Under the pieces are notes generated by a model. It did no database searches, was not told the origin of the DNA, and saw only the letters and a program-made list of their open reading frames with translations. A stretch of DNA of 59,606 bases, taken from positions 1 to 59,606 of the forward strand of contig CANFBW010000015.1 in NCBI GenBank assembly GCA_947444925.1, given 5' to 3'. The translations under genes and the position numbers were made by a program. Position 1 is the stretch's first letter; every line of letters starts with the position of its first letter. Source of the DNA: Flavobacteriales bacterium. GTDB lineage: Bacteria > Bacteroidota > Bacteroidia > Flavobacteriales_C > GCA-002722245. Positions 1 to 10,161 of the stretch are shown piece by piece.

Positions 1-2846
1 ATGCCCTTGTTGTTTTTGGTCCAAAAAGTTCCGCCAGTAGTATTGATCTCGATGGTGTCTAAGCTACCTTTTTTGCAATAGTTGTTTTTTGTTGAGGTGA
101 TACTGTAGTTCGCTGATGGATTTACAGTGATATTGATGGAGTCTTTTCCAGCGCAAACAGTATTGGAAGAGGCGTATTTTATTTTGTAGCTGCCCGCGGC
201 CAATCCGTTTGGACTGAAAGCGCCAGAAGCAACGTTGACATTGATTCCCGACCAAACGCCGCCCAATGTAGATCCGCCGGTGAGTTGCAAAGTAACAGGA
301 GCGATGTTGTTGCAGAAAGGTCCGGCAGCATTGATTTTCGCTGATTCTAAATCAATCACGGTGGTGGTGGTGGTGGTAGAGTCTTTACAGCCATTGTTGC
401 TTACTACTACTTTGTAGGTGTGTCCTGGTTTTGTAGTGAGGCCATTGATGACAGCGCCAACAGAAACCACGTCGCCACTCCAAGTATAGGTGATGGCACC
501 ATTTCCAACAATGGTGCTGAGTGCAGTAAGGGTATGTGCTTCTCCTAAACAAAAGGTTTTGTTTGGACTCACTGTCACCACTGGTTTTGTTGGTGATGGT
601 TTTACCACCACGATCGCCGAGTCATCGGCAATTTTAGCGCAGTTGTTGCCGATGTTGCCTGAGGTAGCAAAGATCAATTTGTATTTTCCGCTGCCAGAAA
701 TTGGTGATAGGGTTACTTTTCCGCTGATGCCCACAGTGCCCGATAGCGTGTCTTTGTATGACAATCCGTTGTTGTGGCTTACAATAAATTTATAATCGTA
801 ACCAATAGTTAGTGGAGCGAATACAACTTTAGCATCGGCTGGGTTACATACGTTGAGTACGCTGGATGGATCAATTTTAGGGTTGTCTACCGGTTTGTTG
901 CAGCACAACGATGTTAGTTTTACAGGAGCTGGGTCACAGGCAACCAAGGCACTAAAGTTCATGTCGGCATAATTGTTCCATTGGTTGTTGTTTGTAGCGT
1001 CTGCGTTCGTTATTTTTATTGCTGTGCCTCCAATAGAAGTATTTCCGATAGCTGGGCAAAAGCCGAGCTTTACAGAGGAACTTAAAGAGTAGCTTCCTGC
1101 AGGTAAGTTCCAGTTTGGTGTAACGGTTGTCAAGATGTTTCCACAAGGTAAAACAGGTATAGTATATGACAAATTAACTGTTCCCGATAAAGTGAAGGTG
1201 ACGGATATAGTTGATCCTGCTCCAGCACAGCCTTCTTCCCACAAAGGCTTTTGAACAACGAAAGAATTTAAAACAGTAGGTGTTGTGGTGGTAAACGTCA
1301 TGGGGGTGATCGTGCCTGAATAAGTTGTGAAAGAAGCAGCAGTTGGCCCTCCGACAGGAAGCGCAGAAAAATCAGCACTTTGCACCCAAATGGTTTGATC
1401 GGTGGCGGTGCCGTTTGGCACAAAAACATTGATGCTGGTGCCCGTGCTTAGCAAGGGAACTAAATTTTGGTTTTTCGACCAATTGTATTGCTTTCCGTCG
1501 GCCATGTCCAACAACAAAGTCGTGTCGGCACATTCTCTGAAACTTAGGTTTTTGGGAATATTCGCAGGCAAAGTGGAAGTGACATTGAAGGCATCAGAGA
1601 AATCACAATTCAAGCCAGGTGCACTGACAATGTTTAAATTGTGTATTCCTGCTGTTGTTACATCATAGGTTCTTTTAGTGCTTGAGCCCGAGGGGCCGCT
1701 CCAACTGATTGCTGAAATGGCGCCGTTGGGAATATTGAAGCCCGCATCCAAAGTATAAAATGAAGGTACGCAAAGGGCTAAATCAGCTTGAGGCAAACTC
1801 AATTTGTCTATGACCACAACATTGTCGTTGACAGAACAATTGTTGTCGGGATCATCGATACATACTCTGTACGAGCCACTGGATGTAACAATTTTCGACC
1901 ATGCTGATGGAAATATTTCAGTTTGTGGATTGCCTGCGCCGCTGTACCAATGAATGGTAGCATTGTTTTGCTGACCAATCAAAACATTTGGGTCAAGTGT
2001 GATGCTTCCGCTGTTGGTGCAAAGGTTCATGGTGTCGGCCATTTTGAAATCGGCAGTATAGGCGTTTTGCCCGTTTACATTTTGGCAAGTGTTGATAAAC
2101 GAAATATCATCGATGGCAACATCTAAACCAGTAGATCCGCCAGCGGTATTTACGAATTCAAAGCGAATCGTTACTTTATTGTAGGCTATTCCCGACGGGT
2201 CCCAGGCGGCACTCATATTTGTCCATTGCATTACACCGGCAGGTGAAATATTAATGCCCAAGGTTACCGGCGCATCAGGCAATCCGTCGGATACTTTATA
2301 TGGAATTACTACAACCTGCATGACAGGAGGTGTTCCGCCGTGGTAATTGGCTATCCAAGCTGAAAACCAGTATTTTTGATTGGGTGTGATGTCCATGGTT
2401 TGCTCCCAGGCAATGGGTAATCCCGATGTTTTTGGACTCACTGTTTGAGCAGCTAAGTCTACCACTAACGCGTAACCGTCACCAATAACTCCAGTGGTGT
2501 GGTCGGCAAAATTTTTATCGCCACCATATGCAACTCCCCAATAGTTGTTGTTGGTGTAAGCTACATTGTTCCATGTAAAGTTTTCGGCGTGCATTATAGC
2601 GTAATGGTCGGCCATATCAAAAGTAGGTTGCGCGGCAGGGTAGGTGCCCATGAAGCTCATGTCACTGTAGAAATCATAGTTGCTGCCTACCGTTGAAACG
2701 TGATTTTTTGCGGCGGGACCAGACAAATAGCCCAATTCAAAATCCCCGTTTCGCACGGCTTCTTTTACAGGGACTGCAGAGCACTGGCTGTAACCAATAT
2801 TGACAAGGCTTAGCAAAGCCAATGAGAGCAATACAATTGTTTTCAT
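1..2846 (-). CDS. Giant secreted repeat protein, N-terminal 948 codons (C-terminus off the window)
   Basis: The minus strand is open from an ATG at 2846-2844 to the window edge, so the C-terminus and stop are missing. The protein begins with a clear Sec signal peptide (MKTIVLLSLALLSLVNIGYS, then QC). Residues about 30-250 resemble the N-terminal carbohydrate-binding-like region of large Bacteroidota surface proteins (a 'NGDFELG' opening and later 'DVAIDDISF'). Further on come several Ig/PKD-like units of about 80 residues with paired cysteines and the usual 'GxY.v.v...C' ends. A run of six Thr codons (ACC repeats, about 361-378) lies in one linker. By analogy with such proteins, including the one at 49973-54784, a C-terminal T9SS sorting domain is expected outside the window; that is inference. 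Probable role: cell-surface adhesin or gliding-associated protein exported by T9SS. There are no frameshifts in the visible part. Confidence 0.85.
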   Translation of the reverse strand, partial: MKTIVLLSLALLSLVNIGYSQCSAVPVKEAVRNGDFELGYLSGPAAKNHVSTVGSNYDFYSDMSFMGTYPAAQPTFDMADHYAIMHAENFTWNNVAYTNNNYWGVAYGGDKNFADHTTGVIGDGYALVVDLAAQTVSPKTSGLPIAWEQTMDITPNQKYWFSAWIANYHGGTPPVMQVVVIPYKVSDGLPDAPVTLGINISPAGVMQWTNMSAAWDPSGIAYNKVTIRFEFVNTAGGSTGLDVAIDDISFINTCQNVNGQNAYTADFKMADTMNLCTNSGSITLDPNVLIGQQNNATIHWYSGAGNPQTEIFPSAWSKIVTSSGSYRVCIDDPDNNCSVNDNVVVIDKLSLPQADLALCVPSFYTLDAGFNIPNGAISAISWSGPSGSSTKRTYDVTTAGIHNLNIVSAPGLNCDFSDAFNVTSTLPANIPKNLSFRECADTTLLLDMADGKQYNWSKNQNLVPLLSTGTSINVFVPNGTATDQTIWVQSADFSALPVGGPTAASFTTYSGTITPMTFTTTTPTVLNSFVVQKPLWEEGCAGAGSTISVTFTLSGTVNLSYTIPVLPCGNILTTVTPNWNLPAGSYSLSSSVKLGFCPAIGNTSIGGTAIKITNADATNNNQWNNYADMNFSALVACDPAPVKLTSLCCNKPVDNPKIDPSSVLNVCNPADAKVVFAPLTIGYDYKFIVSHNNGLSYKDTLSGTVGISGKVTLSPISGSGKYKLIFATSGNIGNNCAKIADDSAIVVVKPSPTKPVVTVSPNKTFCLGEAHTLTALSTIVGNGAITYTWSGDVVSVGAVINGLTTKPGHTYKVVVSNNGCKDSTTTTTTVIDLESAKINAAGPFCNNIAPVTLQLTGGSTLGGVWSGINVNVASGAFSPNGLAAGSYKIKYASSNTVCAGKDSINITVNPSANYSITSTKNNYCKKGSLDTIEINTTGGTFWTKNNKG

Positions 2847-4856: not shown

Positions 4857-5570
4857 TTAAAGTTTTTTTATTTCCACCATTTTTTTAAAATCTTCACGGT
4901 AACTTTCTCCTATTGTGATGCGTGTGTTTCCAATAAGCAAAGTGTTTCTTTCAATTTCATTGATCTTGTCGAAAGCAACAATGAACGATCGGTGGACACG
5001 CACAAATTTGTCTTTGGGCAATTCATTATCTACATAAGTGAGGCTCAATAACGAACTTATTTTTTCATTGTGTAAATGAAACACAACGTAGTCTTTCAAG
5101 CTTTCTATATATAGAATATCGTTCAAAATAATTTTCACTGTTTTGTATTCTGTTTTCACGAAGATGAAGTCGTTTGTGTTTTGTGCATTGCCGATGGCTA
5201 TGGGGAGCGATTCTGTTGTGTTTTTTTCTTTCACCTTAAGAATTGCTTTGAGCAGGCGTTCAAACGAAATGGGTTTTACCAAATAATCAATGGCATTTAG
5301 TTCATAGCTTTCTACTGCGTAATGTGGGTAAGCGGTGGTGAAGATAACGAGTGGTTTTTTGTGCAGAATTTTTAAAAATTCAATGCCGTTAAGTTCAGGC
5401 ATTTGGATGTCTAAAAAAATGAAATCAATGTTTTGATTGTTGATGATTTCAATGGCTTGCAATGGGTTTCGCACTTTCGCTACCAAATTAACGAAAGGTA
5501 TTTTGCTCAAATGATTTTCAATGACATCGAGTGCCAGGGGTTCGTCGTCAATGGCTATGCAGTTCATCAT
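4857..5570 (-). CDS. LytTR-family response regulator
   Basis: A 237-residue two-domain regulator. Residues 1-120 are a receiver domain with the acidic pair (IAIDDEP), phospho-acceptor Asp54 in FLDIQMPELNG, Thr in 'FTTAYP' and Lys in 'YLVKPI'. Residues about 135-235 are a LytTR DNA-binding domain ('DFIFVKTEYKTVKI', 'YIESLKDYVVFHL', 'FVRVHRSFIV'). It is the last gene of a three-gene minus-strand unit, overlapping the degenerate sensor gene upstream by 23 bp, so the three are almost certainly co-translated. The intact kinase partner is the gene at 6371-7384. LytTR regulators usually bind direct repeats; candidates lie upstream of the operon. Confidence 0.93.
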   Translation of the reverse strand: MMNCIAIDDEPLALDVIENHLSKIPFVNLVAKVRNPLQAIEIINNQNIDFIFLDIQMPELNGIEFLKILHKKPLVIFTTAYPHYAVESYELNAIDYLVKPISFERLLKAILKVKEKNTTESLPIAIGNAQNTNDFIFVKTEYKTVKIILNDILYIESLKDYVVFHLHNEKISSLLSLTYVDNELPKDKFVRVHRSFIVAFDKINEIERNTLLIGNTRITIGESYREDFKKMVEIKKL

Positions 5571-6387
5571 TGTGGATAAATTTAGAGATATTAATGCGCA
5601 CTTGAAAGTCGTTTGCTTTGGTATATGTAGAAATTTTTTCAGGTCGGTTTTGCTGCAAGAGTTCTAAAAAGTGCAGCTTGTCTGTTTCGTTGTTGAAGTG
5701 CAAAATAAGTTCCTCTGCATTTTCTGTATTTGTGAATGCAATGTTGTTTTGTTGGCAAAGTAAGGAACAAAAATCACTGGCGACCGAACCTTCGTCAATT
5801 GAACTGTTGAGCTGATATAGATTGTGTTTTAAAACATTGGAGAGTTTGAGTATGCTGTCTTGTGTTTGCTCAGGCGAAGTGCTGGCTTGCTTTTCAGCGA
5901 GTCGCAAAGAAGCCAGCATAAAAGGAATGTTTACAAAGGACCTCAGTGCAGTAAATTCATTGGTTCTTTTTTGTTGGGCGAGATCGGCGGTCTTTTTAAG
6001 ATTGATAAAATAGTCATAGGACAGTCGGCAGGCAAGGCATAGCGTAGCGTATTGAAAAGCAATATAAAAACCAACGCCATAAGAAAAGAGAATTTTTTTT
6101 ATTTGATGGTCTTCAAATCTGGCCCAGAAATACAATCCCAATGTTCCGTAAAAGCAAGTTAAAACGAATAGAAACTGAAAAACCCATAACGCATAGCGAC
6201 TCGTTTTTTTGTGCTTAAAAAAATAAGGAATCAGCGTGAAATAGTTCCAGTAAAATAAAGCCATCATAGGAAATTGCTCCAAGAGAGCAATTTCTATGGT
6301 GTAGCTTCTAAACAAAACATGATTGAGGAAGGTAAGCATCCAAAACAGGGTATGAAAAAATAGTGTTATTTTATTTACTCCTTTCAC
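5548..6387 (-). CDS. Degenerate LytS-like membrane protein lacking the phospho-acceptor His and the ATPase domain
   Basis: A 279-residue protein starting at GTG 6387-6385, overlapping the kinase gene upstream by 17 bp and the response regulator downstream by 23 bp. Residues 1-130 hold about four hydrophobic segments laid out like the LytS-type neighbour. After a short coiled linker, the sequence at residues 148-160 (ALRSFVNIPFMLASL) lines up with the His_kinase motif LKSQISPHFLFNTL of the neighbour, but the His is replaced by Pro155. The following 'SILKLSNVLKHNLYQL' still fits the dimerisation helix pattern. The HATPase_c N box (IENAFKHG) and G box are absent; the last 60 residues show no recognisable domain. 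It probably cannot phosphorylate. A scaffold, sensor subunit or inhibitor of the intact kinase is an inference. The reading frame is clean, so this is not simple decay. Confidence 0.8.
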   Translation of the reverse strand: MKGVNKITLFFHTLFWMLTFLNHVLFRSYTIEIALLEQFPMMALFYWNYFTLIPYFFKHKKTSRYALWVFQFLFVLTCFYGTLGLYFWARFEDHQIKKILFSYGVGFYIAFQYATLCLACRLSYDYFINLKKTADLAQQKRTNEFTALRSFVNIPFMLASLRLAEKQASTSPEQTQDSILKLSNVLKHNLYQLNSSIDEGSVASDFCSLLCQQNNIAFTNTENAEELILHFNNETDKLHFLELLQQNRPEKISTYTKANDFQVRINISKFIHNDELHSH

Positions 6388-7384
6388 TTAAATCAATGTT
6401 TAAAATTGTTTTGTAGCTTACTTTCTCTTTATGAATATCAAGAAGGTATTTTTTTTTGTAAATCAGGTCCAGTCGCCTTTTTACATTATTGATTCCAATT
6501 CCACCCACATCGTCGGTGCGTTTGTTTGCGTTAACTTCGTTCTCAACTGAAAACCAAAGAGAGTTGTTTTGAGCCCGCAATTCAATTTTAATTTCAGCAT
6601 CGTCATTGATGTTTCCGTGTTTAAAGGCATTTTCAATAAATGGCAAAAGAATCATTCCTTCAAACAAGGTGTTTTCCATTTTGTTTTCCATTTCAATTTT
6701 AAAACTCACTTTAACATTGCAACGCAATTGGTTGAGTTGAATGAAATTTTGTAATTGTTGTATTTCGCTTTTAATGGAAGATTTGCTGGAGGTTCCGTAC
6801 TCGTCAACTTTCATCATTAATTCTTTCAGTTGGCCAATGGCGGTAGCGGTTTTAGTGGATTTTGTCAAACACAATCCGTAAATGTTATTTAACGTATTAA
6901 AGAGGAAGTGTGGACTGATTTGTGATTTTAAATAAAGGAGTTCTGTTTGTTCAATTTCCTTTTCCAGGGTAATTTTATCTTTTTCACTTTTAAACCAAAA
7001 ATCAATAAAGGCCAGTGCGGTACTGGCAAAAATAACGTTTGTTGTTGATCCCACAAAATCACTAAACAGCTCTGCCCATAAAATAAATCGACCTTGCGCA
7101 TATCCTCCCCAGCACAATTCAATACCGATGGAATAGATGAAAATAACAGGAATTAGAAATCCAAAGTACTGAATGTATTTCCTACGCACCAAATATTTTG
7201 GCACCAGCCAGTAATAGTTCACATAAAAGAGAGCGATTTCAAAGAGTATGTTGAAGAAATTACTTCCATAAAAATTCCATTTTGTAGCTTCTTTATAATG
7301 GGGGAGCGCGAAAAGGATTTTACTGATTCCTTGTTCAAAAATCCAATAAAAAAGATGTATCCATATTCTTGTTTTTTTGTTCAT
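6371..7384 (-). CDS. LytS/AlgZ-family sensor histidine kinase
   Basis: A 337-residue membrane kinase. Hydrophobic segments occupy roughly residues 10-130. The His_kinase motif SQISPHFLFNTLNNIYGL carries phospho-acceptor His159. The ATPase domain shows the N box 'LLPFIENAFKHG' and a G-type box 'GGIGINNVKRRLDLIY'. ATG 7384-7382 was chosen over the TTG three codons upstream because it gives a normal MNKK start. It heads the operon that continues into the degenerate sensor and the LytTR regulator, and its promoter must lie in the 374-bp divergent region before the micro-ORF at 7588. The signal it senses is unknown. Confidence 0.92.
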   Translation of the reverse strand: MNKKTRIWIHLFYWIFEQGISKILFALPHYKEATKWNFYGSNFFNILFEIALFYVNYYWLVPKYLVRRKYIQYFGFLIPVIFIYSIGIELCWGGYAQGRFILWAELFSDFVGSTTNVIFASTALAFIDFWFKSEKDKITLEKEIEQTELLYLKSQISPHFLFNTLNNIYGLCLTKSTKTATAIGQLKELMMKVDEYGTSSKSSIKSEIQQLQNFIQLNQLRCNVKVSFKIEMENKMENTLFEGMILLPFIENAFKHGNINDDAEIKIELRAQNNSLWFSVENEVNANKRTDDVGGIGINNVKRRLDLIYKKKYLLDIHKEKVSYKTILNIDLSERSK

Positions 7385-7412
7385 TATAGCCAAATGTACA
7401 GAAAGGCTTTTT

Positions 7413-7531
7413 AGGTGTCAATAATTGTCGAGTCACACCTTTGTTTTGCTGATGAATAGGTCGGTTTTACCGACGAAGTATTTCGTTTGACAAAAGCATA
7501 GGAGTGTCACTGTTATTGAGGTGTTTGTCGA
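7413..7531. promoter_or_regulatory. Direct repeats in the divergent region upstream of the LytS operon
   Basis: AGGTGT followed by TTGTCGA occurs twice between the LytS start and the micro-ORF. The first copy is at 7413-7418 and 7425-7431 (6 bp between the parts); the second is at 7519-7524 and 7525-7531 (no gap). The first AGGTGT also pairs with ACACCT at 7435-7440 as an inverted repeat. A 5-bp stem GTCGG/CCGAC lies at 7460-7474. LytTR regulators commonly bind paired direct repeats in their own promoter region, so these are candidate operators; that link is inference. Confidence 0.3.
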
Positions 7532-7587: not shown

Positions 7588-7701
7588 ATGAAAAATCGTT
7601 TATTCTTATTTCTATTTGCACTGCAAATAATACTGTCAATTCAATCTTCTGTTTTCGCTTATCCAATTGTTCATCTGGAAGTAAAAACATGGAGTAATTA
7701 A
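7588..7701 (+). CDS. Possible 37-residue secreted micro-peptide
   Basis: ATG at 7588 opens a 37-codon frame ending in TAA at 7699-7701. The product has a near-perfect Sec signal: MKNR, a hydrophobic core of about 16 residues, then 'SSVFA' with a good signal-peptidase site. That would leave a 13-residue mature peptide, YPIVHLEVKTWSN. It lies between the LytS operon (divergent) and the outer membrane protein gene (same strand, 57 bp downstream). It could be a secreted signal peptide, an upstream leader ORF, or the stub of a larger secreted protein cut short by the TAA. No Shine-Dalgarno sequence is obvious, but many Bacteroidota genes lack one. Confidence 0.35.
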   Translation: MKNRLFLFLFALQIILSIQSSVFAYPIVHLEVKTWSN

Positions 7702-7758: not shown

Positions 7759-10161
7759 ATGAAAGTATTTTTATTTTTCGCAGTAATTTTTTTACTGCAT
7801 CAAAATATTTTTTCTCAGCAACTTTCTGGATTTGTATATGGCGATAGCAACAATACAGCGCTGGAGTTTGCTGCAGTGTCGTTGTATCAATCATCAGATT
7901 CATTGCCTTTGTTGGTAGTGACCACAGATGCTAGTGGTTTTTACAAGTTCAGCGCACTTGATGCGGGAAATTACCGATTGCAGGTGACCATGATGGGTTT
8001 TGAAAATGTAGAGCAGTTGCTTCAAATAAATTCGGTCAATGTATTGCGCTCTATAGTATTGCGTACAGAGTCCTCTAAAATAGAGGAAGTTGTGATACTC
8101 AAAAAGAAAAATGTCATTCAACAGGAAGCGGGAAAAACAACGGTGGATGTAAAGAGTATGAGTGCTGCAACAGGCTTGATGGCCATAGACCTGCTGCGTA
8201 AAATGCCAGGTGTTACGGTTGACAACGACGGAAATATTGCTTTGAAAGGGAAGCCGAATGTGGCGATTTTGCTGGATGGAAAAATGACCAATATGTCGGC
8301 CAAACAAATCACATCGATTTTGCAATCAATGTTGGCGTCAGAAATTGACAACATTGAAATTATCACTGCGCCATCGGCGAAATACGACGCGCAAGGGGAT
8401 GGAGGTATCATCAATATTAACCTCAATAAATCGACTAAAAAAGGCTTTTATGGAAATTTTCAAGCGACTTACGGTCAAGGGATTTTACCTAAATCGAACA
8501 GCGGAGTAAACTTGTCGTTCAATGCCGGTAATTGGAAGTTGCGAGCATCTTACAACATCAATGCAAATAAAAACAGAACCTATGGTTTTAACAATAGGAA
8601 TTTTGGCGCATTGAGTTCTGGTTTGTTGTACAATCAAAGTTATACCTATGTTGTGCCGAGTGTTAATCATTCGTATGCTGTAGGTGCCGATTACAAAGTG
8701 AATTCGAAACTGGATATCGGTGTTTCGCACAATGGGATGTTTATGCATGACATTTGGAATGGAGCTGTGGATGGAGCTGTTATTGATTCGTCGCAACAAG
8801 TGCAGCAGTTTTTTACAACCAAAGATCATGTTCCTTGGCAGGGTACTTCGTATTCAAACAATGTGGATTTTAAATACAAGTTAGATTCCACGGGAACGCT
8901 TTCGGGTGGCATAAACTACATGCATTACCATGATTTAAGCAATCAAAGTTTGCGTGTTTCTCGGAGTTCTTCAGGTGTGAATGCTGTTGCTGATCTGACG
9001 AGCACTCTGTCAGCCTTGAACAACAATGTAACGGGGAAAGTGGATTACGAAAAAGCTTTTTTAAAAAAATTAAAAATCGAGTCGGGTGCAAAATGGATGT
9101 ACAATGCATTCGACAATAGTGTTGATTTTACTGTGCTGCAAAGTGCAGTGGTGGTGCCTTCTACACCATCGAAAAAATTATTTTCATATCAGGAGCAGGT
9201 GAGCGCGGCTTATGTTCAAGGGAAATGGTCGGAGAAAAAATGGCAATTCCAAAGCGGTTTGCGCACTGAATATTGGCATGCGAAAGGAGAGGAGTTGTTG
9301 TCGAAAACCTTGTTCACCCGCGATTATCTACAGTTTTTCCCTTCTGCATTTGTGAGCTACCAAGCCGCCGAAAATCACTCATGGAGTTTTTCTTACAACC
9401 GTCGAATCCAGCGTCCAAATTCGCACATGCTGGCGCCAGTGAGTTATTTTGACGATCCGTATTTTTTGTATTCGGGCAATCCTAAATTGCTTCCGCAGCT
9501 GTCGCACAATGTAGAGTTGTCGCACAGTTTTAAAGAGGGGCGATTGATTAGTACCGTGAGTTATATGCACAGCGACAATTACATTCAGCAATGGTCGGTG
9601 AGTCAACGCGATTCTTCTAATATTTTAGACATGACCACCATCAATATTCCCTTGTATGAAAATTTAGCTTTGTCGCTGTCGTACTATCAAGCGGTGAAAA
9701 AATGGTGGACGATTCAGTTTTACGGCAACGTGTATCAAAACCATTTGGCGGGTTACCTCAGCAATTCTAAAGTCACTGTAGACAATAGATATACGAGCGC
9801 GAGTTTTTCTACCACTCATGTTTTTACTTTGCCCAAAACGTGGGTGATCGAGTTAACGGGCAATTACACAATGAAACAATTGGTGGGCTATACCATTAAT
9901 AATCCCATTGGCAGCGTGGGCCTGTCTGTTAAAAAAGATGTTTTTGGCGGACGAGGAAACTTGAAGCTGAACTGTCAGGATTTGTTTTTCACTTTTAAAT
10001 ATTCTGGTATCACTTCGTACAATGGTTTGCAAAGAACTTATTTGTACAGTTGGGACAATAGAGTGGTGTACCTCTCATTTAGCTGGAAATTGGGTGCAAA
10101 ATGGTTTGTTGAAAAAGAGGAGACTAAAAAAGAGCTGGAAATTATTGGAGGCGGAAGGTAG
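7759..10161 (+). CDS. TonB-receptor-like outer membrane beta-barrel protein
   Basis: An 800-residue outer membrane protein. A signal peptide ending 'NIFSQQ' is followed by a carboxypeptidase-regulatory-like beta-sandwich (residues about 22-100, 'GFYKFSALDAGNYRLQVTMMGF'). A plug domain comes next (about 115-225, 'LLRKMPGVTVDNDGNIALKG', 'IITAPSAKYDAQGDGGIINI'). The rest is barrel, rich in alternating aromatic strands, ending in 'LSFSWKLGAKWF'. This matches the Bacteroidota 'outer membrane beta-barrel family protein' group, related to TonB-dependent receptors. No SusD partner is adjacent, so a glycan role is not supported. It is the nearest downstream target of the divergent LytS/LytTR region. 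Confidence 0.9.
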   Translation: MKVFLFFAVIFLLHQNIFSQQLSGFVYGDSNNTALEFAAVSLYQSSDSLPLLVVTTDASGFYKFSALDAGNYRLQVTMMGFENVEQLLQINSVNVLRSIVLRTESSKIEEVVILKKKNVIQQEAGKTTVDVKSMSAATGLMAIDLLRKMPGVTVDNDGNIALKGKPNVAILLDGKMTNMSAKQITSILQSMLASEIDNIEIITAPSAKYDAQGDGGIININLNKSTKKGFYGNFQATYGQGILPKSNSGVNLSFNAGNWKLRASYNINANKNRTYGFNNRNFGALSSGLLYNQSYTYVVPSVNHSYAVGADYKVNSKLDIGVSHNGMFMHDIWNGAVDGAVIDSSQQVQQFFTTKDHVPWQGTSYSNNVDFKYKLDSTGTLSGGINYMHYHDLSNQSLRVSRSSSGVNAVADLTSTLSALNNNVTGKVDYEKAFLKKLKIESGAKWMYNAFDNSVDFTVLQSAVVVPSTPSKKLFSYQEQVSAAYVQGKWSEKKWQFQSGLRTEYWHAKGEELLSKTLFTRDYLQFFPSAFVSYQAAENHSWSFSYNRRIQRPNSHMLAPVSYFDDPYFLYSGNPKLLPQLSHNVELSHSFKEGRLISTVSYMHSDNYIQQWSVSQRDSSNILDMTTINIPLYENLALSLSYYQAVKKWWTIQFYGNVYQNHLAGYLSNSKVTVDNRYTSASFSTTHVFTLPKTWVIELTGNYTMKQLVGYTINNPIGSVGLSVKKDVFGGRGNLKLNCQDLFFTFKYSGITSYNGLQRTYLYSWDNRVVYLSFSWKLGAKWFVEKEETKKELEIIGGGR

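Follow-up and report, generated by a model that had tools for sequence, protein, structure and literature searches.

A LytS-like partner without the phospho-acceptor His, encoded between a LytS-type kinase and a LytTR regulator in Flavobacteriales

A kinase, a His-less partner and a regulator

We analysed a stretch of 59,606 nucleotides from a Flavobacteriales bacterium (GCA_947444925.1, contig CANFBW010000015.1, positions 1-59,606; hereafter the window, and its genome G000), in which a gene for a LytS-like protein that has lost its phospho-acceptor His (DEG) lies between the genes for a LytS-like histidine kinase (KIN) and a LytTR response regulator. All the evidence comes from sequence comparison and predicted structures. 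The three genes are:

6371..7384, reverse strand: KIN, LytS-like histidine kinase (PF06580); four predicted transmembrane helices; H-box, N-box and G-box intact; motif of the second dimerisation helix (helix 2) lost
5548..6387, reverse strand: DEG, His-less partner (pseudokinase); four predicted transmembrane helices, dimerisation helices, Pro155 and a predicted, shrunken ATPase remnant
4857..5570, reverse strand: LytTR response regulator; receiver (PF00072) and LytTR DNA-binding domain; phospho-acceptor motif LDIQMPE intact

The DEG frame is open from a GTG start, encodes 279 aa, and overlaps KIN by 17 bp and the regulator gene by 23 bp, as the initial annotation of this DNA had described. 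That annotation had also placed Pro155 where the phospho-acceptor His belongs, and an alignment of 100 proteins (90 ordinary LytS, 5 KIN and 5 DEG) bears this out: position 155 is Pro in DEG and His in 90 of 90 ordinary LytS, which were gathered with a pattern that includes the H-box and are intact kinases by design. Across the five DEG proteins the His site holds Pro in four and Asn in one, and the N-box and G-box are unrecognisable in all five. The helix-2 motif is intact in the window protein, as LSNVLKHNLY. Taken alone, the window DEG matched no Pfam or NCBIfam domain; a profile of the five members aligned to 16 ordinary LytS proteins in hhalign with 99.8% probability (E = 7.7e-30) over residues 8-239, and PF06580 was matched in three of the five (best E = 1.2e-8). 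These matches indicate that DEG shares ancestry with LytS.

The AlphaFold2 model of DEG (mean pLDDT 83.9, pTM 0.52) comprises four long N-terminal helices, which we read as membrane helices, then a pair of dimerisation helices and, at residues ~199-271, a small alpha/beta remnant that is without the ATP-lid and G-box part. The ATPase domain, given in the initial annotation as missing, is thus predicted to be shrunken rather than absent. The orthologue in genome G005 is longer (302 aa) and has a longer eroded ATPase remnant. Comparison of the DEG model with the PDB gave no match at E = 0.001 or better, VIA gave only middling scores (Z < 7), and no claim about the fold of DEG rests on these comparisons; the DEG profile found nothing relevant among the sequences of solved structures, and a search for a phage homologue of DEG found none.

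PF06580 was matched in all five KIN proteins (best E = 2.9e-19), all of which keep the PHF of the H-box (PHFLFN-type), and the N-box ENAFKHG and the G-box are both present in the window KIN and three orthologues. GanS, a kinase of LytS type (6swk, E = 2e-8), is similar to the AlphaFold2 model of KIN (mean pLDDT 77.2). The 5TMR-LYT sensor domain had no Pfam match in DEG or KIN. The mechanically called KIN reading frame spans 6371-7393, with a TTG start at 7393; the alternative ATG at 7384 is the likelier start because the TTG falls inside a promoter-like box, TACATTTG. This box (TACATTTG or TACTTTTG; 7391-7398, reverse strand, in the window) stands directly before the KIN ATG in four loci (the window, L042, L043 and L044) and resembles the Bacteroidota -7 element TAnnTTTG; its position abutting the ATG suggests a nearly leaderless KIN transcript.

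Distribution of the triple and selection on the partner

Five strong DEG members (that of the window and four others) emerged from a search of 40 relatives, later widened to 395 genomes of the class. After these the scores dropped sharply to LytS proteins of usual length, and the ones retrieved were ordinary kinases that have the His. A pattern-based scan of ~85,000 species genomes returned the same four besides the window, all metagenome-assembled genomes labelled Flavobacteriales; its one further match was an ordinary kinase. Candidates for a degenerate LytS protein in other families proved to be ordinary PHFFFN kinases that the search pattern had missed. Within the order as sampled (10 genomes in two genera, a partial sampling), DEG is present in 5 of 10 genomes and in both genera. 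Known pairs are confined, in the genomes searched, to this one small order, and the unit is not general to Bacteroidota.

The DEG orthologues are 21-57% identical and in each of the five genomes follow the same kinase, with KIN-DEG overlaps of 17, 17, 11, 23 and 11 bp. The order KIN-DEG-LytTR is kept in four genomes of two genera (G000, G002, G003 and G005), with genes overlapping or abutting, so that the proposed three-part unit is conserved as a whole in four genomes and as a pair in a fifth, G006. The pair in G006 (locus L159, 4796-6587) appears to share an operon with two unrelated genes that precede it. In the tree, DEG forms one clade (support 100/99) and KIN another (100/98), which argues that the pair is old; deep forks are weak and branches long, and the tree cannot tell whether DEG is a duplicate of KIN.

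DEG could be a decaying duplicate kept by chance: its catalytic motifs are missing, its C-terminus is shrinking, and it diverges fastest in the operon. Between G000 and G002, synonymous sites of DEG differ at 0.61 and nonsynonymous sites at 0.26 (pN/pS 0.43); by codon position the differences are 0.32, 0.23 and 0.47, the third position varying most, and the LSxxL motif is fully kept. The observed synonymous divergence exceeds 1, and simulated neutral decay of only 0.2 substitutions per site leaves ~0.3% of DEG copies without internal stops. Because five orthologues share the loss and the frame has stayed open, in two genera, at a synonymous divergence above 1, the loss goes beyond chance; homologues in related genomes, in which a normal His and ATPase domain might have been found, carry the same loss instead. 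Chance retention was already disfavoured and is very improbable, and the substitution pattern indicates that DEG is under purifying selection and is not a case of strain decay, in agreement with its earlier description as a kept gene. The corresponding pN/pS values are 0.17 for KIN, 0.18 for the regulator, 0.28 for the outer-membrane protein encoded on the other side of KIN, and 0.05 for a downstream methyltransferase.

Reciprocal losses in the dimerisation region

The dimerisation region of LytS consists of the His helix (QxxPHFLFN) and a second helix (LSxLLRYxLY), whose motif we scored at five positions (0-5). Among the 90 ordinary LytS proteins the score was 5 in 81, 4 in 8 and 3 in 1. All five DEG proteins scored 5, and the five KIN proteins scored 1, 1, 2, 2 and 1. 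Comparison of the catalytic boxes gives the opposite picture: KIN keeps the H-box and N-box in 5 of 5 and the G-box in 4 of 5, and DEG keeps none. The losses are reciprocal, each partner being without a conserved part that the other keeps, an observation that goes beyond the initial annotation. Since a protein that functions as a homodimer should retain both helices, each partner looks specialised for a single task within a mixed dimer. As a rule, bacterial sensor kinases form homodimers, and heterodimers have seldom been reported (PMC12675982).

We consider it probable, though well short of certain, that KIN and DEG form an obligate heterodimer that drives the regulator and the operon divergent from KIN. 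The two proteins would be made together by coupled translation and would pair in the inner membrane through a four-helix dimerisation region, to which KIN would contribute the phosphorylated His together with its ATPase domain, and DEG its own membrane sensor half and the LSxLLRYxLY surface lost from KIN. The mixed dimer would then phosphorylate the LytTR regulator encoded downstream, the direction of phosphotransfer being presumed. The same gene facts would also suit an inhibitor or anti-kinase, in which DEG holds KIN in an inactive dimer until a signal frees it and the KIN homodimer is the active form, as RetS is summarised to act on GacS (PMC12675982). Under this alternative it is unexpected that KIN has lost a motif kept by ordinary, presumably homodimeric LytS proteins, and we judge it unlikely. 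The reciprocal loss argues for a required heterodimer partner over a silent bystander or a pure inhibitor; of the partner-or-inhibitor role first suggested for DEG, the helix-2 loss in KIN thus favours the partner half.

Several observations weigh against the obligate heterodimer. Seven ordinary solo LytS proteins without the helix-2 Arg keep the rest of the motif, so that a kinase can lose just this Arg and need no partner; a check of the neighbourhoods of such Arg-less ordinary LytS genes showed no second kinase-like gene. The role given here to the helix-2 motif in the dimer is inferred. Genome G006 has the KIN-DEG pair only, without an adjacent regulator or outer-membrane gene, and its KIN keeps the N-box (as ENVFKCG) and has lost the G-box glycines. 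Among five protein genes of this neighbourhood that were compared, DEG evolves fastest. The five pairs all come from draft genomes of one order and are too few to measure residue coevolution.

Three LytS proteins (L203, L215 and L226) have Asp for the near-invariant helix-2 Arg (LSEILDHVLY type) and are perhaps a separate subgroup.

Reciprocal loss in a conserved operon can be read as a natural dissection of a kinase dimer, one that hints at the face of the dimerisation bundle that may come from a partner without catalytic activity.

The divergent operon and known systems

Three further features lie on the other side of the KIN start:

7448..7477, forward strand: LytTR-type direct repeat, GCTGATGAA-12 bp-ACCGACGAA; 9-12-9 layout, at the same place in four genomes
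7588..7701, forward strand: gene for a short, putatively secreted peptide of 37 aa, MKNRLFLFLFALQIILSIQSSVFAYPIVHLEVKTWSN; signal-peptide-like start; C-terminus KTW[N/S]N conserved
7759..10161, forward strand: probable target gene, for an outer-membrane beta-barrel protein of PF14905 type that also has CarbopepD_reg and Plug domains

The direct repeat lies 54, 54, 54 and 55 bp from the start of the KIN reading frame in the four complete loci, and 110, 110, 110 and 95 bp from the peptide ATG downstream. The 9-12-9 layout has been described for operators of LytTR regulators (PMC6193735). With 9-bp repeats and a spacer of about 12 bp in 4 of 4 complete loci, the element appears operator-like and is oriented in a way that would fit the peptide promoter; the repeat pattern was fitted after the sequences had been seen, and shuffles give 0.002 hits in the four regions. 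A short peptide reading frame and a PF14905 gene are divergent from the kinase operon in 4 of 4 complete loci. Ordinary LytS-LytTR pairs without a pseudokinase are also found divergent from PF14905 genes (L148 in G092 and L151 in G069), a recurring pairing that makes the outer-membrane gene a plausible regulated target. The signalling unit probably extends past the segment treated in the initial annotation, to the divergent peptide and outer-membrane genes and a shared operator, an operon and a direct repeat that are new here. The regulator would bind the repeat and control this operon, and possibly its own operon too.

The peptides of the four loci (the window, L042, L043 and L044) are 37, 34, 35 and 57 aa long. 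EVKTWSN, EVKTWNN and EEKTWNN are the C-termini of the first three, with coding differences that include synonymous ones. The peptide gene falls below the usual length cut-offs for reading frames. Across 295 genomes, no KTW[N/S]N match outside G000, G002 and G003 ends a short secreted reading frame, and the matches there are near the control level. Position and conservation make the peptide a candidate signal.

DEG might serve chiefly to sense the secreted peptide, or some other ligand, as a receptor that leaves the output to KIN, a possibility compatible with the heterodimer model. It draws on the short peptide gene standing upstream of the outer-membrane gene in 4 of 4 complete loci, on the occurrence of a KTW-type peptide in 0 of 43 other PF14905 loci (short reading frames flagged there by a crude signal-peptide filter being dissimilar), and on the fast evolution of both DEG and the peptide. 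The G005 peptide, with its different C-terminus, speaks against it, as does G006, which has the pair without an adjacent outer-membrane gene and in which no KTW peptide was found. We hold this receptor role to be conceivable but doubtful. More tentative still is the full circuit in which a Sec-exported peptide, encoded alongside a transporter-like outer-membrane protein, would be sensed by an obligate heterodimeric LytS kinase with reciprocal losses in its two halves, and the LytTR regulator would feed back on the peptide and outer-membrane genes through the shared operator. If the peptide is the signal, Gram-negative Bacteroidota would have here a system of communication by peptides, of which we found none in the open-access literature.

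The closest parallel among described systems is FasBCA(X) of group A Streptococcus. There, FasB and FasC interact as a heterodimer, not as homodimers, upstream of the ComE-like FasA; as in the four loci here, two kinase-like genes and a LytTR/ComE-like regulator form the operon, one of the two is a proposed pseudokinase, and the operator is of the same kind (PMC12675982). The Fas proteins differ in kinase family and phylum and in their small-RNA output (PMC12675982), and also in that the phosphorylated His is proposed to lie on the pseudokinase FasC and kinase activity on FasB, whereas here both are on KIN and 0 of 5 DEG proteins have His at the site. We therefore liken KIN-DEG to Fas in outline and claim no membership in that type; KIN-DEG-LytTR may be regarded as a variant of a heterodimeric, pseudokinase-assisted two-component system, new in its division of labour.

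CheA3 and CheA4 of Rhodobacter sphaeroides are likewise a pair of diverged, mutually complementing kinases, but they are split between ATP binding and phosphotransfer (PMC3591291), and the split here is between catalysis and the helix-2 motif. Because the His and the ATPase domain are both on KIN and neither is on DEG, this is not a split kinase in their sense. For GacS/RetS and DivL, no conserved operon is known in which the genes for kinase, partner and regulator overlap. They are similar in that kinase activity is altered by a kinase-like partner, and DivL works without its ATPase domain (PMC12675982, PMC9491836). HdrRM and BrsRM also combine a LytTR regulator with a co-encoded membrane partner and 9-12-9 direct-repeat autoregulation, but they have no sensor kinase (PMC6193735). 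With its kinase and PF00072 receiver domain, the present unit is not a kinase-free LytTR regulatory system. BtsS/BtsR and YpdA/YpdB share the LytS-type kinase and LytTR regulator, but each has a single kinase with the 5TMR-LYT sensor domain that is absent here (PMC10653868).

Beyond the regulator gene, positions 3-2846 (reverse strand) encode the N-terminal part (948 aa) of a large, secreted protein resembling an adhesin, which runs off the window edge.
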